This document shows positions 24,135-42,401 of a stretch of 50,284 bases of DNA, one piece after another (positions within the stretch are counted from its first letter, which is position 1; the number at the start of each line of letters is the position of its first letter). The DNA is from a virus. The notes beneath the pieces were generated by a model that did no database searches, was not told the DNA's origin, and worked only from the letters and a program-made list of their open reading frames with translations. The position numbers and the translations under genes are program-made. The stretch covers positions 1 through 50,284 of the IMG/VR virus record IMGVR_UViG_3300046028_002248. One strand, 5' to 3'.

Positions 24135-24153
24135 ACCTACCTCCTGTGTTAAG

Positions 24154-24183
24154 AATATAACTCATGAATCAATCACAAGTCAA
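24154..24183 (-). promoter_or_regulatory. Leftward early promoter for the replication operon
   Basis: On the minus strand TTGACT (24178-24183), an 18-base spacer and TATATT (24154-24159), 20 bases before the ATG at 24134. The spacer contains ATTCATGAG, similar to the operator half-site at 15009-15038. Confidence 0.7.
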
Positions 24184-24522
24184 CTGTTATGTTACCAACT
24201 AAACTCCCTCTTACCCGTTGACCCTCCCTCCCCCACTGGGAGGCTAAAGGACCAACGTCTCTTTATCAAGGAGCTATGCCCAGTTGTTAAGTGAGCTACC
24301 GGCCAGCCAAGCCGCCCTCCCCTGAGATCCCGATAAGGTCAGTTTTCACCGGCCTTAACGATCAACTCCCAGCGTACTAGGGTATGTGTCTTTACGACAG
24401 CCTTGTTTATCCCGTTCGATTACTCTACTAGGAGGTGCGGGTCACACCGAGGTTCTGTGTTTCTTGAGTTCAGCCCATACAGGCCATTAGCTAACGCGCT
24501 CTGACGGCTGCGTGTGGAGGGT

Positions 24523-24619
24523 GAGACTGGGACTGCTCACATGAAGCAGTGTATTCAAAACTTACATTTCGCTCTTTAGGAGATATGCCGGCGCTAACCC
24601 GTCACACAATCCCAGTCTC
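24523..24619. repeat. Long inverted repeat enclosing a second hairpin
   Basis: GAGACTGGGA (24523-24532) and TCCCAGTCTC (24610-24619) are perfect 10-base arms 77 bases apart. Inside, ACTGCT (24532-24537) and AGCAGT (24545-24550) close a 7-base loop CACATGA, which contains most of the ACATGAA half-site. Confidence 0.7.
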
Positions 24620-24620
24620 A

Positions 24621-24744
24621 AAACAAAAAAAGCCACTTAAGTGTGCGCTTCGGTAGTGACCTTGCCTAATGACTCTCCGACCGAAAGCATTAGGTAAAGC
24701 GAAACGCACATCTAAGTGGCCTAATCCATTGCTCACTACAGCAA
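24621..24744 (-). ncRNA. Candidate small structured RNA with pseudoknot
   Basis: Predicted minus-strand transcript of about 124 bases. It starts with a TTGCT/AGCAA hairpin (24729-24744). An outer stem pairs GCCACTTA (24632-24639) with TAAGTGGC (24713-24720) and TGTGCG (24642-24647) with CGCACA (24705-24710). Inside, TTCGGT (24649-24654)/ACCGAA (24680-24685) and CCTAATG (24665-24671)/CATTAGG (24688-24694) interleave as an H-type pseudoknot. A T-run with one G (plus-strand A-tract 24621-24631) follows as a terminator tail. No open frame beyond a two-codon ATG-GAT-TAG. No family recognised. Confidence 0.72.
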
Positions 24745-24751
24745 CGCCTCG

Positions 24752-24781
24752 TTTATATCAAAAAAAATCAACCAATGTCAA
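24752..24781 (-). promoter_or_regulatory. Promoter of the candidate small RNA
   Basis: Minus strand TTGACA (24776-24781), an 18-base spacer with eight T in a row, and TATAAA (24752-24757). The predicted start, near 24744, coincides with the first hairpin of the RNA. Confidence 0.75.
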
Positions 24782-29154: not shown

Positions 29155-29374
29155 CGGTACTGTCGTGGCCGCACACAGCAACCAGCTCAGAGATGGCAAA
29201 GGCCGAGGACTCAAGGCTCACGATTACCGAATCGCGTCCTTGTGTTTTAGGTGCCACAGTGACTTAGACCAAGGCTCTAAGATGGATAAAGCCCAGAGAG
29301 TTGAGATGTGGGAGGAGGCACATCGCAAAACTCTGGGTTTATTCTTTGAGCAGGGGATTATTGGACCCGTCTGA
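29087..29374 (+). CDS. DUF1364-like (HNH-related) protein
   Basis: 95 residues. LPCQHCGANDGTVVAAHSNQ, then LRDGKGRGLKAHDYRIASLC and FRCHSDLDQGSKM give the C-x-x-CG ... AHSN ... GKG ... K-x-x-D ... A-x-LC-x-x-CH-x-x-x-D-x-G pattern of DUF1364, an HNH-related zinc protein in phage recombination and replication operons. Endonuclease activity is possible. It is the last gene of the plus block; its end overlaps the giant gene's end by 17 bases. Confidence 0.82.
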   Translation: MYRNEKLIKAARLLPCQHCGANDGTVVAAHSNQLRDGKGRGLKAHDYRIASLCFRCHSDLDQGSKMDKAQRVEMWEEAHRKTLGLFFEQGIIGPV

Positions 29375-32300
29375 CTTCTTCGTTGTACGCTTTCATCAGG
29401 GCATCACGTTTTTCTTTCTTAAACTTGATGTCCTTCTCGGGCGCTTCCTTCTTAACTAAAGCGCGAATCTCTCGGTTGTACTTGGCAACTTCATTCTCAA
29501 CGTAGTTAGCACGGTTAATGAGCCTGACTGTCGCTTCTTTGTTTTCCTTGCGATAGTCGTTCACATCACCCTTACGCTCTTTGATCCGCTTGATAGCACC
29601 CTCATGCTCAGCCATGGCCTTGACGTTCTTGTAGAACTTATCAGCCACAGCCGAAGGTGAATCGAGCTCACCATACAGCTTGCCGGCAATCGGTACTGAG
29701 TAAGCTGGGATCTCTTCTCCAGTAGCCTTATTGGCCACATAGCGAACGGCCTTGGTGATCTCACGGCCAACACCACCAGCGTACTCGCGAGCGATGTAGT
29801 CCAGCTGGTCAGCTGTTGGGCTAACCGCACCGATACCATCTTCACCACCACCGGTAATGTAGTTGATGCCGTAAGCCAGAGCTTTACTCAGTGCTGTGGC
29901 CGTGTCTCGGCTGCGCTCCCAACCTGGAGTCGGGGTTGTCTCGCGGCCTTCCCGTGAGATTGGACGGCCAAACGCATCCTTATTAACAGCCAACGACACG
30001 ATAGGATCGGCAATCGTAGGTGCAAAGAAGTTAGCGGGGCTACCAGCTCCCAAGGGATTGAACATATCAATGACTTGAGCCATGATGTTGGTCATTGTCG
30101 TGGTCAGTGCACGGCGGCCTTTCATAGCGCCAGCATTGATCAAGACATACTCAGTCACTTCACGGCCAATGTTGGGGAACAAGTTCCAGCCCAAAGGCAT
30201 TGGGATGATCGCGTAAGTGCCGTTGCCAGTTGGGATGATGATGTTCTTAGACTTGAGGAAGTCTGGCGGCTCATCACCATCAAAGCCAGCGGCCATCAAT
30301 GCGATTGCTTGGAAGGCACCAATCAACATACCGCCAGCAACAATCTTCTTACCCACACTGGTCATGGAGATCTTGCCGCCCTTTTCGTCATACATGACTT
30401 CCATCATGCGAGCTGTACCTTGGACGCGAGCATTGAAGAACGCATACAGGGCATTGGCATTTGCTGTGGCTTGACCTTTTCTGTTGAAGTTAACAGTCAG
30501 GTTTTTAGCCAGTGCGGCCGCTCTCTGAGGTGTCATGTCAGCATCTAAGCCAGCTTTGAAAGCCGACAGACGAACACCGTTCTCCATCGCATCGTTATAG
30601 TCAGACAGCCAGTCAAGTACAGCATCTACCGCTTTACGGATGGTGCCATGATCAAGTCTGGCCAACTCACGCTGAACCAAAGTGGCTTTGTCCTTAGACC
30701 GGCTGAACTGCTCGCTGTAGCCAGTGATACCACCGACATCTCTAAACTGTTGCCACAGATCAATCCACTCTTGCTGTTTGGGGTTTGCCGTAATACCAAA
30801 CAGTGACGGCTTCATACCGCGCAGATCGGTAAAGATTGCTCGCAGGGCTGGGATAGATCCAGCCATTACTTTCATCTTTTTGTCTTTGAGCTCTGTACTA
30901 GACAGGTTGATCGAGCCACCAACAACGTCACGCGCAAAGTTCCAAGCACCGAACACAGGGTTGTACTGGGTGTTCATGGCCGCAATCAAGCGGGTCACTT
31001 CAGCAGCAAGCCCCATCGCATAGCTCAGCTGATTAGCGTCCATGTTCTTTAAAGCTTCAGCCATGCGCTTGGCGCTTGGATTACCAGCGTTAAAGAACAC
31101 ATAGCGGTCTTTGCCGTTGATACGCACAGGGAAGACGTTAGGCGAGTTACGCAAGGCAGGGTTCACTCTGTAGCGAATCAGGCCTGTCGTCTCGTCAATC
31201 ATCGCTGTGCGAGGCTCTGCAAAGATGGCGTTAGCTTGCTCAATCGTCAGGCCAAAGCCAGCCATCTCTTCTGTGAGCTTCTTCTTGTTGCGGATAGCGT
31301 CAGGGTTAACAACCTTCCAGAAGTTTGGATTGGGGTTCTGGATGGCCAGCGCATACAGAGCACGGCCAATTTTCGCCTTCTCACCACGGATAATGGCCGC
31401 CTCACGCTGGAGAGCCACGTTGTTAACGATGTCAACCACAGTCTTATATGAGCCAGCAGCTAACTTGGTAAACGATCCACGCACTCCAAAGCCTTGGCCA
31501 AGGCCAGAGCTTGGGTTAACGTAGTCCAGCTCATCAGGGTCACGCTTCAAAGGAACGTAGTTAGGAAGCTTCTCACGCCATGCCGCCACAGTCTCAGGCG
31601 TCTCTAGGCCATAGCTGACCAACAGGTCTTGAGTGCCTTCAACCCAGCCGTCAATCGTCTCGGCCAGCTCTTCAAACTGTTTCTTCTTCTCTGGGTACTT
31701 GTTCAGGTCATCAAAGAACTCTTTGACCTCATCATCAAACATACCAGAGCCGCCATCAGCAAGGCCGCCACGATCTGCAATCAGCTTGTTACGCACACTT
31801 GCATGACGGGCATGGAGGAAAGCCTCAAACTCACCCATCGACACACCCATCTCATCCATCTTCTTGATGAAAGGACGCATCTCTTCTTTGATGAAGTCTT
31901 CAGTCTTCGTTGACTTTGAGCTGTGATACAGATCTTCTTGCAAAGATGGATCGTGCTCGTCCTGCAATGAGTCGATCTGGTCTTCAATCTGCTTAACCAC
32001 CATACGCATATCGGTGTGTTTATCAACCACGCGATATTTAAAGTCTCTCAGCGTAGACTCAGGAGCTGCTTCCCAAGTAGCCAAAGCACCGGGGCCGCCC
32101 TTGTAGTTCTTAACCATGTTATTGAGCGGCATCGAGATCCGAGAAACATAGTCAGCCAACACGGCCTTACGAATACGCTCGCCCTTTGCGTTCATGATGT
32201 CATTGAACACTTTGTGGACGATGTACTTGTTGTCAAAGCCGAAGATGTACTTCAGGCCTTCAAACAGACGTTTGGACATCAGGACAAACTTATCCCAGCC

Positions 32301-35300
32301 AGAGCCCAGCTTGCGAGCCATCAAAGGCTCAGCATTGACAGCCCAAAACTCAGAGGGGTTGACGTACTGGTAGTAGTCCATGCTTGGCAAAGCCTTGATC
32401 ATGGCGTCATAGGACTGCTGACTTGGAGCGCCCATGAAGTTCATCATTTCCTCAAAGAATGCAATACCGGCTTTGCTCTTCTCTTCTTTGATGGCCTTCT
32501 TAACAGAGGCATCCCACTCGTCAACCAGTTTGTTTGTTGCCTCAATCGACATCATCTGCTCAAGGGAGTGAGCGATTTCATGGCGAATTGTGCTGGGGTC
32601 AGAGGTGCCTACAGTGCCCTTGTACAAACGCACGATACGGGACAGGGCAAAGAACTGGCCAGCGGCAATGCTGTCTTTTGGTTGCTTGGTAACAGATAAG
32701 CTCAAGCCTTCCAAGATTTCTGGGAACTTCTTGTACAAGCGGTCAATGACGTCATACACATCATCACTGATAATGCCGGCGTCCCATGCCTTGGTAGCGT
32801 CAGCAAAAAAGTTACCAGCGGTTGTACGCTTGGGCTTGCTTGCATCAATGTCAGCTTTCAAAGCCTTGGTGACACTGTCGATCTCATTGATCATCTGTTG
32901 CTCAGTCAGACCAGCCTGACCTTTGGCAAACTTATCAGTGATAGATGCCCGCTTCTGGCGCAGTCTTGCGTACTGCTCAATCATTGCATCACGGTCTGTG
33001 TATGCGTTAACAGCAGTCTCAAGGCCGGGGCTGAACAGGAAGTCATCCTTCGTGCCATAACTTACGTTCTTGCCTAGAACCATGTTGCCAATCTGGATAA
33101 CTTCTTCAGCAGCCACCACTGGTTGTGTGGTGTTCTTGTCGTAGAAGTATGAGTGGCGTGTTGGGTCTATACCGATTTGCACCCACTGAGGATCGTTGAA
33201 AGCCGCTTGTGCTTCCTCAAATGCCTTCTCAGCAGTAGTCTCAACGTACTTACCTTCGATAGTCTGCAAAGCATCCTTGGCCGCACCGCCTGCGATCTTC
33301 AGGGCGCTACGCTCGTTTCCAAGGCCGAATGTGACATCACGCACCTTGGCCACGTTGGAGTAGCCCAAAACCCGTCCTGGGCCCGATTTGGTGCCTTTGC
33401 TGTGGATGCTGACAACATACACACCCTTGCGGTTAAACGCAGGGATGTCCAGACGCAGGCCAACCTCAACTCCGGGCATGATCTCAGGGTCAACCTTCTC
33501 GCGCTTGACTTTGTCCAAAGCGTCATAGACTTGCTCTTCTGTTGCTGGCGCTAGTGGTTTCTCCAGAGGTTTGATGGGCTTGTAGAAGTTAACCAGCGCA
33601 TCGTATTCCTCTTTGGTCATCTCACCAGACTGAACCAGTTGGGCGGCCATAGTCAACTCAGGCGAGCGTCCGGGAGGAAGCTTGGCAACGTTGGCCAAAG
33701 GAGCAACAAACGGCTCTTTAGGCGCAAACATCTCGCGCGCTTTATCCTTGTTATTGAACGCAATCAAAACCTCTTGACGCTCTTGCATCAGGTACTTGAT
33801 GGCCTTGTCTGACTTGATCTCGTCATAGACAGTGGCAACCATCAGAGAGCCGTTCTTATAGAAGTCGCCCGTAAACTGTGTTAATCCCTTGTCTAAGAAG
33901 TAAGTACCGCCCTGACGCTTTGAGCTGGGTGTGGTGTAGGTGAAGCGGCCGTTGCCATCATTACGGATCTTCAACAATCCATCGGTTGTGGAGATCACTG
34001 CATTACGGCCAAACTCGGTAAAGAACTTGTCGATCTCAGCCATGTTCTTGAGCTTGACAGGAGCGTTCTTCTGCTCTTTCTCAAAGTCAAACGTGCGCGG
34101 CATCAAGATGCCTTGGCCAGTCGTGCCATCGTCCTTCGTGTAGGAGATGATCTGACCCATGTTGTTGACTTCAGCAAAGCCAGCCAAGATGTTGCCAGTC
34201 ACCATCCAGCGCTTCTCACGGCGAACAGTAGCTCCCTTGTCGAACAGATCGAGCATGGGCATCCACTCGCCCTGCATAGTGTCTGGGTTCAACCAGTTAA
34301 CATCGCGTCTTTCAGAGATCTCATAGACGCCACCGATCTGAGAGAAGCTCAGAGAAGTAGACTTGTCTTCGCCATCAGCCAATGCAATAGTCATCTTCCA
34401 GTCAGAGCCGGCCACAGGGTTCTTAGTCCTACCCTTGTTCTGCAAGTCAGTCACGACACCATTGAACAATGCACCCTTCTTGTTCTTCACCTGAACAGGT
34501 GAACCAACTGGGTAGTTGTCTAGGATTGTCTTGACTTGTAAATACTGGCTGTTAAGTTGGTTGCGGATTGTTTCAACCTTGGCATTGTCTGCCCCAGCGG
34601 CCACAGCGTCAGCAACCTTCTCAGTGCCGTATGCCTTGTACTTGTCAAAGATCTTCTGGAACAAATCCTTGGACAGCTGAGACGCTGTCATGCCGGCTTT
34701 GTCTAAACGTTCTTTGACTTGCTCTTGGACTTCTTGCTTAGAGTAAGGCTTGACCCTACGCTTAACGTCCACGCGCTCCATGAATGCTGGCTGTGCGAAC
34801 ACAGACGGGTCATCCTTGGCCTCTGTAATGGGCTTGGAGCTCAGCGTAATGGCGTCTAAGTCTTCAGCCTTGGCTTCCAGCTTGTTGGTGCCCATGCTGT
34901 CTTCACGCTCAACCAGATCGTTATAGCGGTCAACAATATCCTTGTACACCTCTTCCTGCACTTTGATCGGCAGGATTGGAATGTAGCCAGACACTTTGCG
35001 GATATCTTCCTCATCAGCTTCGGACGGGTCTTCCATGATGTCAATCACGGCTTTACCGCCCAGCTGTTCATAGACCTCTGGGTTATCACGCAAGTACTCT
35101 TGCATTACTTGGCCGCCGTAGTCGTTCATGAAGTCAACAGCACCTTCAGCTGTCACCGCAGACTTACGGGAAGCTGTGGTGTTGGCGTTCAGGGATGCCA
35201 TCTTCTTGAGCAAGTTGGCAGCAGGGCGCATCTCAGCAGGGATGTCAGCCATCATCTGTGAGTACGCTGGCGGGATAACCTGGCCTGTGCGGTGTACACG

Positions 35301-38300
35301 GCCAAGCATCTGCATATGGGTGTCGATGTTCTTCTCAGCTTGAACAATGATCATGTGACGCTTGCGCTGGTCAATGAACTTCTTATTGGCGTGTAAAGAC
35401 AAACCAGTAGATCCGGCTTGGTTCAAGATTAACACATCAACTGAGCCATTGTTAAAGCCTTTAACAGCTTTAATGCGGTCAGATGTCTTTGAGCTTCTAG
35501 AAGCCAGCAAAGGCTTACCAGTTGAGTAGTTCAGGGTTACTGTACGGCCAGTGATCTCATCTGTCTTGATGTCTCGTTCTTTGCCATCCAAGCCTTTAAT
35601 TTTGACTTTACGCAACTCATTGTGCATATAGTCAATTGGAGAGATAGGAGCCGAGCCAAAGCCGGCATTCTCTACAAAGTCACGAATAGAAGCGTACTGA
35701 TCAACCAATTCAGGACCCAGATCTTCATCAGTCAGGCGGTACTCTTCTACTGATCCATCAGGTTTCTTGATCTTAATGACACGTTGCTTTTCCAAGTAAC
35801 GCAGATACAAGTCGCTGAACGACAGGTTCATTGGATCACCAACGTTAATGCCCATCTCGTCAGCGTAACTCTGCAAGAATGAGCCCATGGTGTTGGAGAC
35901 AGTCATCACAACCTTCTCACCAGCCTTCAGGCGCTCGATGGCGTGGTTGACAGAGTCTTGTGCCTTCAATGACAACAGCATCTGGTCAATCAAGTTGTGC
36001 ATGATTGAGCCAAAGTTTGCACTCTGGATCTGTGTCTTCTCGCCAGCCACACTGACCTTGCCGCCCTTGCGGTCCAAGTCCTTCTGCATATCCTTGACAA
36101 CAACCTCTTTAGCGCGTGAGAACTTCAGGATTTCACGCATAGACTCAGCCATGTTCTCGGCTGTTTGCTTGTCTACTTTGGTCAGCTGAGTGTCGTATGA
36201 CACCCCTGCAAAGGTACGCTCACGGCGAATGTACTGGCCAGCCTTGGTCAGCATATTGGCCACAGTCTGCTGCATAGGGATGCCGCCTGACTTGATGGCT
36301 TCTGCCAATTCAGAAATGCTCTTGACGGCCAGCTTCATATCTGTACTTGAGTACAGGTCCATGACGTCTGGACGCTTGGCGTATGTGGCAGATGAGAAGA
36401 AAGTACCTCCGGCATTCTTCACCAGATTGCGGATAAATCCTGCGCGGCCTTGGATTTCTTGTTGCTCTTCACCACTCTTACGGCCACCGCCAGATCCACC
36501 AGCGTTATGGCTCTCGTCAAAGATCATGTAGTTACCAGCACCAAAGTGCCTTACGAACTTCTGACGCTCAACTTCCTTACCCTTTTTACTCTGCATTTGA
36601 TGGTAAGTTGTGAAGATAACCTTGTAGTGGCCAAGATCGTTACTGACCATCATTTCCTTCATCAACTTAGCCACTTTCTGAACATCAGATGCTGGCGCGC
36701 GTAATGTCAGCTCAGTGGTAACAGTCTCACCCCTAACATTGCGAGACAGCTCATAAGGAACTTTCTCGGTTGCGTTGGTCATCAAGATCTTAGGTCTGGC
36801 TGTATCTAGCCCCAGCTCTTGCGTCATGCCAATATCATCCAAGTCGCGGATCATGTCAGCAAAAAGGTTGGGACGCTCAGTCAGGAAGATCGGGGTCTTG
36901 CCGTTAATCAAGGCGTACTTGATCATGGCGGCCACCACACGGCCTTTACCTACACCAGTCTGGTCGCCAATGATGAAGCCTTTGCCAGTTTCAGCATTTC
37001 GAATGGCCATGGCCAAAGCATCTACTTGCTCAGCTGAGAAGCTGTCACGCAGATCGTCAACGTCCATCTCCAGTGATTCAGCTACATATTCATCAATGTC
37101 ACCAACCTCACTCTTGATCTTGTCAAGGGATTCTTTAATCGACTGATACATCGCACGGGGAGCCAATGTTCCCACTGCGTTAGCTTTAGACTCTGGCTCG
37201 TATGTAGCTTGGCCAGCAGTCTCTTGTTCTTGGTCAGCGCGTTTCTCTAGACTAGATCCGAGACGCTCACCTGAGACGAGGCCAACTCCACCCACTCCGC
37301 TAGGCTGACGCTCTCCAGCGCCTCCTTTGCCGGCTGGCTTTCCTCCCTCACCCTTGCCGGAAACTGGTTTTTCCTCTGGGCCACGTTTAGATTCGTCAGT
37401 AGGTCTAGGTTTCCCGTCACCAGTGACTCCCCCACTTGGTTCGCGTTGTCCACCTCCGGCAGTCCCAGCTTCCGACACGCTTGGTTTGCCGCCTCCAGAG
37501 GGTCTTCCTCCTTCAGTGCCAGCCACATCACTCGGTCTGCCAGCGCGTTCACCCAGTCCCGGCGCAGTAGGTCGCCCTTGGGCACCTTTACCGCTGTCAA
37601 CTCCGGCGGCGCTACCATCTCCTGTGGATACCATGCGATCATTTAGCTTCTCCTTCAATTGTTCGTAAGATGTGATTACTTGAGGCAGATCAGCTGCCGG
37701 TAAATCACGCTTAGATTTGCCTACGCCATCAATGACAATGACGTCTACAGGGTACGTTGTGCCCTGCTTTGCATACATATTGCCGCCAGCTGTGAAGTGG
37801 TCAACAACGTTGTATTTGTTGTAGAGGTTGTAGTAGAACTCACGTTTAGCCTTACCGCGATAACCTTCACGGCGGCCTTCCTCTGTATTAGCCTGTACAC
37901 CACCCAAGATCAAGACAGCTTTGCCGTCATCTTTCATACCCTCAAGGGAGTGCATTGCAATAGCGTGGTCGATGTCGCTGATGTTGCCAGCCTTACCAAA
38001 AGGCGGGTTCTCAATCACAACGTCAAAGTCAGCACCCTTCACATTAGAGCTAAGCGCGTTCTCATTACCAATCTCAGAGCCTTCCAAGATACGGCTAAGC
38101 ATCTCAAAGCGGTCTGCATTCAGCTCATTGGCAATGATGTTGTCTTCGGACGCACCAATCAACAGCATCCCGTTACCAGCTGTAGGCTCGTACACGACTG
38201 TGCTGTTATCAATGCCGGCCAGCTCAGAGGCGATAAAAGCCAATGGCGCAGGGGTAGAGTAGGCCTGCTCTGAAACGCTCGTAGAACTGCGGCTACTGAG

Positions 38301-41300
38301 GTTTGGCTGGCGGTCATAAAGGTCTACCAACTGGTCATAGATCTCAGCAGCTGTCAGCTCATCTTTACGGCCTGTATCAACGATACTGCGAGCGGCCATG
38401 ACTACACCGGCCTCAATAGCCTCATCAGCCATCTTAGATTCACGGGTGCCTGGCTTGATCTCTTGGCCAGTCATCTCGGAAATCATCTTGCGAGCTTGCG
38501 TGATGTCGCGGAAGTCACCATTGTTAAGGAAGAAATCAGAGATGTTCTGAGCAACCTCAAACCTGTCGGACGCTCTGTTAATGTCCATGCCACCAGCTTC
38601 TTCGGGAGCCTCTTCTACAGCTTCCTCTGCGACAGCTTCTTCAGCTACGTCATCAATCTCTTCCATTGACTCAATAGCGATAACTTCCTTCTTGGAGCTC
38701 GCGCCTTGGTCTTGGTACTTGCCGGCCATGCCGATGTAAGCACCTTGGAGCTGGTCGATATTGATCTCATCAGCAAAGTCATTACCCAACTTAGCGCGGA
38801 TTAGACCCATCACATAACGTGCGGCTTCTTTGAACTTGTAGTAACCAGCGCGGAATGCACCATCCATCAACCTTGTCAGGATAGGCATGAGCTTTTGCTC
38901 GTCCTCTGGCATGATGTTCAGGCGTGTGCCTTTTGTGATCAGCATAGACAGATCACTTAGCGCATCCTCAATGTCAGCTTTGGCGGCCTCTAACTTAGCT
39001 TTATCAACACCTTGTGCCTCAAGCGCCTTTTGCTTGTCAGCCAGAGCCTTGTCACGCTCTTTGTTTGAGATGGCGTTGGCTTTATCTACAGCGGCCTGAA
39101 GGATACTGGCATCCTCAGATCCAGAAGCGCGTTGCTCATCAGTCAACTTCTGAGCGCGCTTGTACACTTCCTGCACAAAACGATTACCCATGCGGGTGAA
39201 CTGAGGCTTTTTGTTAGGAGTCCAAATGATCCCCTGACCTTTCATCCAGCCTTCAGCGCGAACATCGGTCTTGTTGCCCTTTTTGATCTTCTCAATTGTC
39301 TCCATCGCTGTGGCAAGCGAAGGCATTGGCGAGTAAATGCCAATCTTGTTCTTTTTCATGTGGGCCAGAATCTCAGCCTTCAGCTCATTACTAGCTTTGA
39401 TTCTTTCTTCGCTCTCAGCAGCTTCTTTTTCTAAACGCTCTTTATCAGCTTTTGCCTCTTCATCTTTACGTTTCTTACGCTCTGCTGGGGTAAGGTTCTT
39501 CTCAGCTTGTGCTTTCTCTTTGGCAATCTCAAGAGGGCGGTCAGCTGTGTTGCTACGCACTACGCGCTCAACAAAGTCTTTGAACTCTTTGGTGCCGGGC
39601 TTGCCGTCAAATTGAACACCCAACGCTGAACGGAAACCAGTACTGCTAGCACCGGGGCCATACATACTGAACTGCCATTGATTGTCATAATTAAGCCAAC
39701 GGTCTACATTGACATTGATCTCACCATAGCCAAAGTCAAAGCTATAGTCGTAATCAATAGGCTCTTTGCTAACGTTTTCTATTTCACTAAATCCACCATT
39801 GCCGGTGTCTTGGTCAAGTAACTTAACTCTGTCCTTACTAACTGAAATAGCAATCCTAGGACTTGGATCACCCTTCATGTAAACCAAGTCACCAATCTTG
39901 ATGCCTTTGCTATTGGCTTGCTCTTCAATAGGATGCTGGACATTCGGGTTCTGTATCTCCTGATCTATGTCAGCATCAGGGTTGGCCGCTTTGATCTTCT
40001 TGTAGATTTCGATGGCCTTCTTATCCAGCTCATCAGGAACGAATGGTTTGTTTCTTAAGGCCTCTGCGGTCTTGGAGATATTGATTGTTGATTCTGGTGA
40101 TGTTACCTCCGCATCACGTTCCAGTCGGCCTCTAGCTTCCTCAACCATCCTCTTTGCGGATGTATCAAAGTCGCCAAACTCCATGTCGTTTTCAACATCT
40201 TCATTGATCAACTTGAGCGCTTGCTCATAGGTCAATGGCTTTTGTTTTCTGTTCTCGCGGCTTTGGTTCTCCAACTCCAAGAACTCTTGGACTTTAGGAT
40301 TAACAGCTGGTGCGGCAGGAGCGGCTGGAGTAACAACAGGCTTGGGAGCAGTCTTAGGCTTATTGGCCTCAATGAACTTATCAACAACTTCGTCTACCTG
40401 ATCCATACTCATGGACTTAGGAGTCGGCATTGGCTCACCGCGCCGCATAGCTTCAAGGGCACCGACACTCTGAGAGCTCTTGTACGCCTCTTCAGCTTGC
40501 TTGACAGTGTCCATCAAACGCTGACCCAGAGGTGTCGTGCTTCCATCCTTGATCAGACCGTTATCAGTCATCCAAGTCAGGGTTTCTTTTGGCAGTTTTC
40601 CTGCGTTACCTTGCCATCCATCAATGATGGCGTTGTAGATCTCAGGCGTACTTGGGCGCGTCTTGGCCACTGGGGCTTCTGGGATAACTTCTTCAAGCAA
40701 CTGAGTAGATTCAGGCTGTGCTTGACGGCTATCTAACTCAGCCTTTACGAGCTCATATTCCCTGTCTCGCAAATTGATGTTGTTAATCTGAGCTTTTAAC
40801 TGCTCATCTGTCATCGCTTTAACTTGCGCTTGATCAAGCTCAGCCACTGGTGCTTCAACAGGAACTAAGGGTTTACCCACATTAACAGTGTTAATGTCAG
40901 ATTCTGTTGCGCCAAGTGCTTCTCTGAGCATGGCTTCCATATCTTGGGCTGGCGCTTCTTCGTCCTCCACAATCGCGGCAGGAGGAGCTGGGGGAGGAGC
41001 TTCTGGCATTAGACCGGCAATACCACCTTCTGGAGCAACTGGGGCAACAGGAGGAGCTGGGGGTTCTGTTGCGGCAGGAGGGGGTTCTTGTGAATATACA
41101 GTTTTAAGAAGCTCATCAAGCTCAGACATCTTTGCCTGAAGTTCTTGACGCTGAGCATCTTGCTTTTCTTTTGCCCTGATGGCTCGATCAGCACCATAGA
41201 CACGAGCTCCTGTAGTAGCGGCACCACCACCAATAGCACCAGCGGCTTCAGCTGCGGCGGCATTCAGGATCTTCTTGGCATTCTCTTTTGTTAAGAACTC

Positions 41301-42401
41301 GTCAATCTCACGTTCAGCCAAAGCACCGCCAAGTTGGGTAGCTTCTTGAGCGCCACCAGTAATAAACTCTTGACCCATCCCTTTGGGGATTTCTTTAACG
41401 CCGGCCTTGAGTGCTTCCTTGCGAGTCTCGCCTTTAACAACTTCACCCAATCCACGCTTGGCCAAAGTGGCCGCTGGGCCTAGGACTGCGTCCAAAGCAC
41501 CGCTGACAACACCAACGGCCAGTGATGTGTCACCAGTCTTCTTAATGTAGTCAATGACTTCTGCGGCCTTTTGTTCTGGAGGCAGGTCTTTGATTCGCTT
41601 CTCAAGGAACTGTAGTCGGTTGCCTATAGCTTCACCGGTGCCCATGCCGATACCAAGCGCGGCAACGCCAGCACCACCAGTCGTAGCGGCGGCAATCATG
41701 ATAGGAGCTAACTGGACAGCACCAGAGCCAACGTTATAAGACAGCCAGTTAGCAAAGTCTTTAGCGCCTTCAATATCAGTAAGGTCTGTTGTACGGCCTT
41801 TGTACTTCTGTGCGTCTTTTTGGTACTGGTCTACAGTGGTTAAAGCCGCTTTAACAAAGTCTGTACGGCGGCCGATCTCACCAACATTACGCTCACGCAA
41901 CTTCTCGCGTGTCGCTGGGTCAGACATAAGGTAAGCGCGAGCCTGACTAGTTGTTTCATCTAGACCACGCAATTGATCTGGGCTTGTGATCTGACCAGTT
42001 TCAATCTTGTTAAACAAATCTTGGCGCTGTTGGACGGTGCTCATGGCACCAATGTCTTTCATCAGGCCAGCGCTCTCCCACATGGACTTAAGACCAATGA
42101 CGCCAGCACCTAGGCCTTTGCCAAACTCTTCTCCGGGGGCTAACTCTGATGGTGGTTTTGGAGCTGTTGATGGTCGTGGAACTATAGACGCAATACCACG
42201 CTCAGCTGGAGCGCTCATCACTTGCTCTTCAGGGGAGAGCGTAGGCTCTGGAAGAGGAGCGTTCTTTACAATTTGCCACTGATTACCAACTAGATATGCC
42301 GTATCCCCTCTGTCGTTCTTAGCTGTTTGCTCTGGAGCGGTCCATTTGTTATTAACAAGGAACAACACCTCCCCAGTTTGAGGATTGACGGCACGTTGCA
42401 T
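29358..42401 (-). CDS. Giant polyvalent protein (methyltransferase + helicase + peptidase signature)
   Basis: 4,347 residues, 26% of the window. An N-terminal Gly/Ala-rich part (to about 420) may meet membranes. Low-complexity linkers and coils follow to about 1300. A DNA adenine methyltransferase-like domain (about 1370-1580; EPTAGNG, NPPFG at 1465) and a Gly-rich linker lead to an SF2 strawberry-notch/DarB-type helicase (Walker A GDQTGVGKGR 1812-1821, DESH 1962-1965, QMLGRVHRTGQ from 2364). HEIAH at 3274-3278 is a zinc-peptidase signature. From about 3800 the chain matches the LPD38-type ending of polyvalent proteins. Such proteins (P1 DarB is a relative) enter the cell with the DNA and counter host defences. 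No frameshift seen. Confidence 0.88.
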   Translation of the reverse strand: MQRAVNPQTGEVLFLVNNKWTAPEQTAKNDRGDTAYLVGNQWQIVKNAPLPEPTLSPEEQVMSAPAERGIASIVPRPSTAPKPPSELAPGEEFGKGLGAGVIGLKSMWESAGLMKDIGAMSTVQQRQDLFNKIETGQITSPDQLRGLDETTSQARAYLMSDPATREKLRERNVGEIGRRTDFVKAALTTVDQYQKDAQKYKGRTTDLTDIEGAKDFANWLSYNVGSGAVQLAPIMIAAATTGGAGVAALGIGMGTGEAIGNRLQFLEKRIKDLPPEQKAAEVIDYIKKTGDTSLAVGVVSGALDAVLGPAATLAKRGLGEVVKGETRKEALKAGVKEIPKGMGQEFITGGAQEATQLGGALAEREIDEFLTKENAKKILNAAAAEAAGAIGGGAATTGARVYGADRAIRAKEKQDAQRQELQAKMSELDELLKTVYSQEPPPAATEPPAPPVAPVAPEGGIAGLMPEAPPPAPPAAIVEDEEAPAQDMEAMLREALGATESDINTVNVGKPLVPVEAPVAELDQAQVKAMTDEQLKAQINNINLRDREYELVKAELDSRQAQPESTQLLEEVIPEAPVAKTRPSTPEIYNAIIDGWQGNAGKLPKETLTWMTDNGLIKDGSTTPLGQRLMDTVKQAEEAYKSSQSVGALEAMRRGEPMPTPKSMSMDQVDEVVDKFIEANKPKTAPKPVVTPAAPAAPAVNPKVQEFLELENQSRENRKQKPLTYEQALKLINEDVENDMEFGDFDTSAKRMVEEARGRLERDAEVTSPESTINISKTAEALRNKPFVPDELDKKAIEIYKKIKAANPDADIDQEIQNPNVQHPIEEQANSKGIKIGDLVYMKGDPSPRIAISVSKDRVKLLDQDTGNGGFSEIENVSKEPIDYDYSFDFGYGEINVNVDRWLNYDNQWQFSMYGPGASSTGFRSALGVQFDGKPGTKEFKDFVERVVRSNTADRPLEIAKEKAQAEKNLTPAERKKRKDEEAKADKERLEKEAAESEERIKASNELKAEILAHMKKNKIGIYSPMPSLATAMETIEKIKKGNKTDVRAEGWMKGQGIIWTPNKKPQFTRMGNRFVQEVYKRAQKLTDEQRASGSEDASILQAAVDKANAISNKERDKALADKQKALEAQGVDKAKLEAAKADIEDALSDLSMLITKGTRLNIMPEDEQKLMPILTRLMDGAFRAGYYKFKEAARYVMGLIRAKLGNDFADEINIDQLQGAYIGMAGKYQDQGASSKKEVIAIESMEEIDDVAEEAVAEEAVEEAPEEAGGMDINRASDRFEVAQNISDFFLNNGDFRDITQARKMISEMTGQEIKPGTRESKMADEAIEAGVVMAARSIVDTGRKDELTAAEIYDQLVDLYDRQPNLSSRSSTSVSEQAYSTPAPLAFIASELAGIDNSTVVYEPTAGNGMLLIGASEDNIIANELNADRFEMLSRILEGSEIGNENALSSNVKGADFDVVIENPPFGKAGNISDIDHAIAMHSLEGMKDDGKAVLILGGVQANTEEGRREGYRGKAKREFYYNLYNKYNVVDHFTAGGNMYAKQGTTYPVDVIVIDGVGKSKRDLPAADLPQVITSYEQLKEKLNDRMVSTGDGSAAGVDSGKGAQGRPTAPGLGERAGRPSDVAGTEGGRPSGGGKPSVSEAGTAGGGQREPSGGVTGDGKPRPTDESKRGPEEKPVSGKGEGGKPAGKGGAGERQPSGVGGVGLVSGERLGSSLEKRADQEQETAGQATYEPESKANAVGTLAPRAMYQSIKESLDKIKSEVGDIDEYVAESLEMDVDDLRDSFSAEQVDALAMAIRNAETGKGFIIGDQTGVGKGRVVAAMIKYALINGKTPIFLTERPNLFADMIRDLDDIGMTQELGLDTARPKILMTNATEKVPYELSRNVRGETVTTELTLRAPASDVQKVAKLMKEMMVSNDLGHYKVIFTTYHQMQSKKGKEVERQKFVRHFGAGNYMIFDESHNAGGSGGGRKSGEEQQEIQGRAGFIRNLVKNAGGTFFSSATYAKRPDVMDLYSSTDMKLAVKSISELAEAIKSGGIPMQQTVANMLTKAGQYIRRERTFAGVSYDTQLTKVDKQTAENMAESMREILKFSRAKEVVVKDMQKDLDRKGGKVSVAGEKTQIQSANFGSIMHNLIDQMLLSLKAQDSVNHAIERLKAGEKVVMTVSNTMGSFLQSYADEMGINVGDPMNLSFSDLYLRYLEKQRVIKIKKPDGSVEEYRLTDEDLGPELVDQYASIRDFVENAGFGSAPISPIDYMHNELRKVKIKGLDGKERDIKTDEITGRTVTLNYSTGKPLLASRSSKTSDRIKAVKGFNNGSVDVLILNQAGSTGLSLHANKKFIDQRKRHMIIVQAEKNIDTHMQMLGRVHRTGQVIPPAYSQMMADIPAEMRPAANLLKKMASLNANTTASRKSAVTAEGAVDFMNDYGGQVMQEYLRDNPEVYEQLGGKAVIDIMEDPSEADEEDIRKVSGYIPILPIKVQEEVYKDIVDRYNDLVEREDSMGTNKLEAKAEDLDAITLSSKPITEAKDDPSVFAQPAFMERVDVKRRVKPYSKQEVQEQVKERLDKAGMTASQLSKDLFQKIFDKYKAYGTEKVADAVAAGADNAKVETIRNQLNSQYLQVKTILDNYPVGSPVQVKNKKGALFNGVVTDLQNKGRTKNPVAGSDWKMTIALADGEDKSTSLSFSQIGGVYEISERRDVNWLNPDTMQGEWMPMLDLFDKGATVRREKRWMVTGNILAGFAEVNNMGQIISYTKDDGTTGQGILMPRTFDFEKEQKNAPVKLKNMAEIDKFFTEFGRNAVISTTDGLLKIRNDGNGRFTYTTPSSKRQGGTYFLDKGLTQFTGDFYKNGSLMVATVYDEIKSDKAIKYLMQERQEVLIAFNNKDKAREMFAPKEPFVAPLANVAKLPPGRSPELTMAAQLVQSGEMTKEEYDALVNFYKPIKPLEKPLAPATEEQVYDALDKVKREKVDPEIMPGVEVGLRLDIPAFNRKGVYVVSIHSKGTKSGPGRVLGYSNVAKVRDVTFGLGNERSALKIAGGAAKDALQTIEGKYVETTAEKAFEEAQAAFNDPQWVQIGIDPTRHSYFYDKNTTQPVVAAEEVIQIGNMVLGKNVSYGTKDDFLFSPGLETAVNAYTDRDAMIEQYARLRQKRASITDKFAKGQAGLTEQQMINEIDSVTKALKADIDASKPKRTTAGNFFADATKAWDAGIISDDVYDVIDRLYKKFPEILEGLSLSVTKQPKDSIAAGQFFALSRIVRLYKGTVGTSDPSTIRHEIAHSLEQMMSIEATNKLVDEWDASVKKAIKEEKSKAGIAFFEEMMNFMGAPSQQSYDAMIKALPSMDYYQYVNPSEFWAVNAEPLMARKLGSGWDKFVLMSKRLFEGLKYIFGFDNKYIVHKVFNDIMNAKGERIRKAVLADYVSRISMPLNNMVKNYKGGPGALATWEAAPESTLRDFKYRVVDKHTDMRMVVKQIEDQIDSLQDEHDPSLQEDLYHSSKSTKTEDFIKEEMRPFIKKMDEMGVSMGEFEAFLHARHASVRNKLIADRGGLADGGSGMFDDEVKEFFDDLNKYPEKKKQFEELAETIDGWVEGTQDLLVSYGLETPETVAAWREKLPNYVPLKRDPDELDYVNPSSGLGQGFGVRGSFTKLAAGSYKTVVDIVNNVALQREAAIIRGEKAKIGRALYALAIQNPNPNFWKVVNPDAIRNKKKLTEEMAGFGLTIEQANAIFAEPRTAMIDETTGLIRYRVNPALRNSPNVFPVRINGKDRYVFFNAGNPSAKRMAEALKNMDANQLSYAMGLAAEVTRLIAAMNTQYNPVFGAWNFARDVVGGSINLSSTELKDKKMKVMAGSIPALRAIFTDLRGMKPSLFGITANPKQQEWIDLWQQFRDVGGITGYSEQFSRSKDKATLVQRELARLDHGTIRKAVDAVLDWLSDYNDAMENGVRLSAFKAGLDADMTPQRAAALAKNLTVNFNRKGQATANANALYAFFNARVQGTARMMEVMYDEKGGKISMTSVGKKIVAGGMLIGAFQAIALMAAGFDGDEPPDFLKSKNIIIPTGNGTYAIIPMPLGWNLFPNIGREVTEYVLINAGAMKGRRALTTTMTNIMAQVIDMFNPLGAGSPANFFAPTIADPIVSLAVNKDAFGRPISREGRETTPTPGWERSRDTATALSKALAYGINYITGGGEDGIGAVSPTADQLDYIAREYAGGVGREITKAVRYVANKATGEEIPAYSVPIAGKLYGELDSPSAVADKFYKNVKAMAEHEGAIKRIKERKGDVNDYRKENKEATVRLINRANYVENEVAKYNREIRALVKKEAPEKDIKFKKEKRDALMKAYNEEVRRVQ
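40879..40897. promoter_or_regulatory. Palindrome copy 5 (ACATTAACA-N1-TGTTAATGT)
   Basis: Base-for-base the same as copy 1. It lies inside the giant gene in a linker region (encoding Asp-Ile-Asn-Thr-Val-Asn-Val) about 1.5 kb from the gene start. Confidence 0.7.

Follow-up and report, generated by a model that had tools for sequence, protein, structure and literature searches.

The element described here, El1, belongs to a new, widespread family of phage RNAs. It lies on the minus strand of the window, that is, the entire stretch of DNA analysed, the 50,284-base genome of an uncultured phage (IMGVR_UViG_3300046028_002248). The El1 copy in the window is almost certainly a member of a real structured RNA family, of which at least 109 distinct members were collected, nearly all in uncultured phages. 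I propose that El1 may be a phage sRNA gene built as a self-terminating leader, which would gate or partner a second structured RNA (hereafter RNA2) located downstream; taken as a whole, this statement, which is derived from sequence, falls a little short of an even chance.

The nearest relatives of the large terminase of this phage, at ∼55% identity, are those of Pelagibacter phage HTVC027P, phage 023Pt_psg01 and phage DSL-LC04. A single open frame of 4347 residues (29358-42401, minus strand) occupies a quarter of the phage record. Along the minus strand, the El1 locus consists of a RuvC-like resolvase gene, a terminator-like hairpin, El1, an optional domain (El2), the RNA2 of the window (El3), a promoter-like site and the frame of a small membrane protein (Table 1). 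No convincing protein-coding gene was found between 24936 and 24135. The initial annotation had placed El1 at the border of two operons, a description that is loose: the genes on both sides are on the minus strand, RuvC has its own terminator-like hairpin and the downstream unit its own promoter-like site.

Table 1. Features of the El1 locus in the window.
Feature	Positions	Strand	Remarks
RuvC-like resolvase	25410-24937	minus	PHROG Holliday junction resolvase
Terminator-like hairpin of RuvC	24887-24861	minus	
Sigma-70 promoter	24752..24781	minus	TTGACA-N18-TATAAA, read directly; -35 TTGACA 24781-24776, 18-nt spacer, -10 TATAAA 24757-24752
H1, 5' hairpin	24728..24745	minus	GUUGC-[UGUAGUGA]-GCAAU at the predicted transcript start, read directly
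Pseudoknot, 5' strand	24733..24739	minus	GUAGUGA, in the H1 loop
P1, closing stem and terminator hairpin	24632..24721	minus	outer GGCCACUUA/UUAAGUGGC, inner UGUGCGUUUCG/CGAAGCGCACA
P2, inner hairpin	24660..24699	minus	CUUU-A-CCUAAUG-CUUUC / GAGAG-U-CAUUAGG-C-AAGG, nested in the minimum-energy fold
Pseudoknot, 3' strand	24653..24659	minus	UCACUAC, 7-nt stretch unpaired in the nested fold
U-run of the intrinsic terminator	24621..24631	minus	UUUUUUUGUUU, read directly
El2, optional domain	24520..24622	minus	long variable outer stem; hairpin with invariant loop GUUAGCG; ACACUGCUUnAUGUG
El3 (RNA2)	24136..24511	minus	starts CGUCAGAGCGCGUUAGCUAAU; 24136 is not a mapped 3' end
Promoter-like site of the downstream transcription unit	24183-24154	minus	
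Small membrane-protein frame	from 24134	minus	ParB-like, helicase and primase genes further on

Most of the architecture that the initial annotation had read by eye is indeed present in the sequence: a sigma-70 promoter on the minus strand, a short 5' hairpin at the predicted start, an 89-nt domain closed by stems of 8 and 6 pairs, and a T-run immediately after it. The domain (24720-24632) is closed by GCCACUUA/UAAGUGGC and UGUGCG/CGCACA, and its closing stem runs 5 pairs further inward (UUUCG/CGAAG). The predicted fold of El1 has an energy of -55.5 kcal/mol (z = -7.2), which none of 200 shuffled sequences equalled. In the window, 6 nt separate the end of the TATAAA hexamer from H1, and this placement is characteristic of the family: the best -10 hexamer ends 6-7 nt upstream of H1 in 47 of 53 relatives, even though their upstream sequences are often unrelated. 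Across 50 compact loci, the promoter shows a mean of 3.4 mismatches out of 12, compared to 6.0 in shuffles. A U-run following the closing stem is likewise seen in the aligned relatives.

The first loci were obtained from relatives of the RuvC gene, from a DNA pattern of the El1 stem and from a motif of El3. A separate scan with the El1 closing-stem pattern, regardless of El3, yielded at least 72 new loci, at least 60 of them with El1. All relatives are IMG/VR metagenome contigs, with the exception of one GenBank record; among GenBank phage records, El1 was found only in MW202484, an uncultured complete genome. Two alignments were then used, A2 (18 sequences, excluding the window and its close kin) and A7 (56 distinct rows, excluding the window, retrieved by way of the 5' closing-stem strand). 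They agree on four helices, in which 92.8% of cells are paired in A2 and 94.3% in A7, with 18 and 20 of 34 pairs, respectively, changed on both sides; structures slid out of register drop to 35–54% paired. The covariation score is 0.479 for A2 (0.185 in shuffles) and 0.492 for A7 (0.181 in shuffles, with 0 of 500 shuffles as good), where the counts are not corrected for the tree, the collapsing of identical loops being the only correction for shared ancestry in the shuffle tests. Covariation among homologues, which the initial annotation had put forward as a check on the structure, is therefore positive for these helices.

Considered individually, H1 is paired in all cells of A7 (56 distinct rows) and 97.2% of those of A2, and P1 in 99.4–99.5%, with 9 of 18 P1 pairs changed on both sides in both alignments. 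P2 covaries across the family (5 of 5 pairs in A7), and is long in the subgroup of the window and short elsewhere. Since A7 was gathered through the 5' strand of the closing stem, the constancy of that strand is in part due to selection of the sequences, but the crossing helix described below is not affected. R1, a covariance model from which the window and its close kin had been left out, recovers the El1 of the window with 46.6 bits (E about 1e-6, a rough value). The same model gave no match in 369 genomes of one bacterial class, a search that had no positive control.

No Rfam family accounts for these sequences, in agreement with the initial annotation, which had recognised none. A search against Rfam 15 at the curated thresholds gave no match in the window, and with E-values up to 5 the best matches in the window are at chance level, none of them covering El1; the models for RF02932, GOLLD, ROOL and C4 do not match the window. 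In scans of many relatives, only RF02932, tRNA and int-alpA exceeded the threshold, in no case on El1.

The initial annotation had described the core of El1 as an H-type pseudoknot of two interleaved helices. The 7-pair helix, CCUAAUG/CAUUAGG, is real and forms part of P2. The 6-pair helix, UUCGGU/ACCGAA, is rejected: it competes with the nested fold, occurs only in relatives with the same sequence (L044, L045, L086, L054, L065), is absent from L002, L004, L008, L037, L061 and others, and shows no compensation in homologues. A different pseudoknot, missed in that first reading, is strongly supported by comparison of the sequences, and is predicted to form between the loop of H1 and an internal strand. 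Exactly UCACUAC, complementary to the GUAGUGA of the H1 loop, is left free by the minimum-energy fold. The loop and the internal strand can form 7 or more contiguous pairs in 52 of 53 members, representing 23 distinct sequence pairs, and 5 of the 7 pairs of this crossing helix change on both sides in A2 and A7. After collapsing identical loops, all 26 distinct loops reach 6 pairs; after exchange of the 3' parts, on average 6.0 and at most 14 of them do so. The sole misfit among the 53, L110, has halves that resemble two El1 types; I therefore treated it as a chimera, either natural or from assembly, and left it out of later tests. A pseudoknot read by eye from one sequence may thus err in detail while the call of a structured RNA holds.

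The initial annotation had also regarded El1 as a stand-alone gene, and this does not stand: El1 heads a locus that contains a second structured RNA in essentially every relative, and is therefore not free-standing. The gap between the El1 terminator and this second RNA is usually 15–30 nt; in the window, El3 begins 123 nt after the end of the R1 model, with El2 in between. Among the 109 distinct El1 listed, the next RNA is El3 in 59, type ii in 19, type iii in 10, RF02932 in 7 and type v in 6. As for the other 8, two are at a contig end, four (L154, L209, L165, L159) are followed by what are, by eye, variants of El3 or type ii, and the last two, L038 and L175, were assigned to no type. No sigma-70 site was found before RNA2, the mean being 6.2 mismatches compared to 5.8 in shuffles, and none of 50 loci having 3 or fewer. 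Where RF02932 lies directly 3' of El1, it scores 83–104 bits and starts about 20 nt past the El1 terminator; these loci are L158, L161, L171, L181, L189, L198 and L221. The isolated Acidovorax phage AP1 also carries RF02932, behind its primase gene and with no El1 (L263, 2462-2585), from which it follows that RNA2 does not need El1, and that El1 is an optional partner.

El3 is 88–91% identical to its counterparts in several relatives, where the RuvC DNA is about 70–77% identical. RNA-type covariation was seen in El3 copies of a related subgroup. In this related subgroup a closing helix at the end is followed by CUAUG, and in one locus (L094) that AUG starts the next gene. The motif at the start of El3, UCAGRGCGSGUUAGC, is present in about 100 phage contigs; a pattern search with the motif in bacterial and archaeal genomes, one per species, gave 4 matches, none of which continues as El3. 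Several identities were considered for El3 and dropped, namely put-type antitermination, as El3 is located after and not before the terminator, and a group I intron or RNase P, for which Rfam models exist and did not match. In six loci (L063, L078, L095, L119, L144, L147), another RNA replaces El1 before El3; it comprises a 5' hairpin, GCUUCGUCAAAGCUA, GCGGCAACCAAGCCUAAAGC and a terminator of its own. One locus (L126) has a tRNA-like sequence with a T-arm in a variable domain ∼150 nt upstream of El3, closed by a long helix. El2 is represented by 58 distinct copies in the fetched loci and is absent from the compact ones. It looks mobile, with a freely covarying outer stem, and is sometimes present twice in a locus, flanking El1 on either side. 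The loop of the terminator-like hairpin of RuvC (24881-24858, minus strand) holds GCUAACCC, the exact complement of GGGUUAGC in El2.

In the 20 nt that precede El3 or the type ii RNA, a second match to the H1 loop was identified, usually ending 6-8 nt before RNA2. It reaches at least 6 pairs in 23 of 83 loci, compared to 1.6% of control windows, and at least 7 pairs in 10 of 83, compared to 0.2%. The excess survives collapse to 28 loop classes (mean 4.75, compared to 3.60 with an sd of 0.20), and the match is perfect over 7–9 nt in ten loci (L005, L082, L062, L049, L180, L007, L093, L097, L004, L001). The corresponding stretch of the window matches its own H1 loop over 4 nt only, and most loci have no long second match; this contact is therefore not general. 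The UCCACAC of the window leader fits instead the H1 loops of L001 and L093, as might be expected after an exchange of El1.

Exploiting these observations, the following mechanism can be proposed. Transcription would start at H1, whose loop would engage in a 7-bp kissing pseudoknot with the strand that immediately precedes the 3' arm of the terminator, and the closing stem and U-run would end the transcript at about 24625-24621. El1 would in this way be a self-terminating leader with two outputs: most polymerases would stop, producing a compact stable sRNA, while a minority would read through into RNA2, which has no sigma-70 promoter of its own. The H1 loop would be the contact common to both outputs: in the short form the internal strand would hold it, and in some members of the family it could pair with the leader before RNA2, either in cis within the read-through transcript or in trans when supplied by the short RNA. 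By these means El1 would gate or partner RNA2. Because a second structured RNA follows El1 in nearly every case, El1 probably controls this RNA or acts as its partner, but as it is combined with several different RNA2 types it could equally act alone, and the gate or partner mechanism itself is put forward tentatively, at clearly less than an even chance. More speculative, and rather unlikely as it stands, is the extension in which El1 and RNA2 form a two-RNA switch across many uncultured phages, the H1 loop picking either its internal partner or the site in the RNA2 leader.

El1 could alternatively be an independent trans-acting sRNA with no tie to the next RNA, its closing stem serving to bind a protein or RNA of the host or the phage. 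The binding part would then be UUACUCAUGC/GCAGUAGUAA, with its conserved internal mismatch. The presence of its own promoter and terminator fits such an RNA, as does the variety of unlike RNA2 types to which El1 is joined, and the pairs at columns 34-37 and 41-43 of the closing stem are invariant in A7, with the caveat that the search pattern had in part dictated the 5' strand. However, a free-standing gene would be expected to wander, and essentially every El1 for which sufficient 3' sequence is available is located just upstream of a structured RNA, beside unrelated genes that vary between phages (RuvC; TerL, the terminase large subunit; NinB). I consider this explanation unlikely, if worth keeping in view. 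A plain leader is improbable. It would resemble the lambda late promoter in having the same order of parts (promoter, short RNA, terminator, downstream unit), with a constitutive promoter and an antiterminator protein to open the terminator, and the short transcript would have no further role; but there is strong selection on both structure and sequence within El1, the downstream unit of the window has the promoter-like site listed in Table 1, and the locus follows unrelated genes, TerL in some phages.

Two further explanations were considered. In a nuclease-resistant or decoy RNA, the kissing-locked 5' hairpin and the 3' terminator stem would protect a molecule that occupies a host nuclease or defence protein; the predicted 5' end is indeed within a few nt of a helix tied into the fold, and loop sequences diverge while the shape is kept. 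This leaves the conserved stem sequence and the fixed place before RNA2 unexplained, and is quite improbable. I attach even less weight to the suggestion that El1 is an element acting at the DNA level (a replication origin, or a packaging or recombination site) that only resembles an RNA: conserved non-coding DNA with inverted repeats, and domains that appear swapped between phages, would suit it, but a promoter at a fixed distance, G-U pairs, long-range kissing pairs that cross other helices and a U-run on one strand only would not.

El1 has points in common with several known systems. In the lambda late leader, pR'-6S RNA-tR', a promoter is followed by a short terminated RNA and a downstream unit. 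I know of no conserved pseudoknot family there, and El1 differs in that it precedes a structured RNA and that its neighbouring genes are different. The RNA antitoxins of type III toxin-antitoxin systems are small pseudoknot RNAs, arranged as tandem repeats next to the toxin gene; in contrast, El1 is a single unit, a search with a 191-nt stretch detecting it once in this genome, and the neighbouring proteins that were searched gave RuvC or no family, with no recognised toxin among them. Betaproteobacteria-1 (RF02932) occupies the same type of locus, directly downstream of El1 in the 7 loci above, but it models the second RNA and not El1, and does not match the window even with E up to 5.

GOLLD and ROOL, structured RNAs of phages whose function is not known, have kissing loops and often lie close to tRNA genes (PMC12286853). 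There are tRNA genes near some El1 loci as well (L174, L179), but GOLLD and ROOL span several hundred nt, compared to about 120 nt for El1, which their Rfam models do not match. Small structured phage RNAs complementary to leader sequences have been described in P1, P7, N15 and P4 (PMC7567579). The loop complementarity to the downstream leader in part of the El1 family (6 or more pairs in 23 of 83 loci) may be comparable to that of the C4 / P4 CI antisense RNA (RF01695), but there is no Rfam match to C4 and the leader in the window matches over 4 nt only. Finally, an abundant ∼800-nt non-coding transcript of ICP1 originates from a ∼1-kb gap without genes (PMC7567579); it too is a phage non-coding RNA from a gene-free gap, in a different phage.

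GOLLD, ROOL and Betaproteobacteria-1 are structured phage RNAs for which, to my knowledge, no function has been established. Several unlike second RNAs have in El1 a common partner upstream that carries a promoter and a terminator of its own, which suggests that these RNAs represent one kind of locus. It also offers handles on that locus: a single loop, the strand with which it pairs internally and, possibly, another partner. If the two-RNA proposal is true, a small RNA would gate, or dock onto, a range of unlike second RNAs, Betaproteobacteria-1 included.
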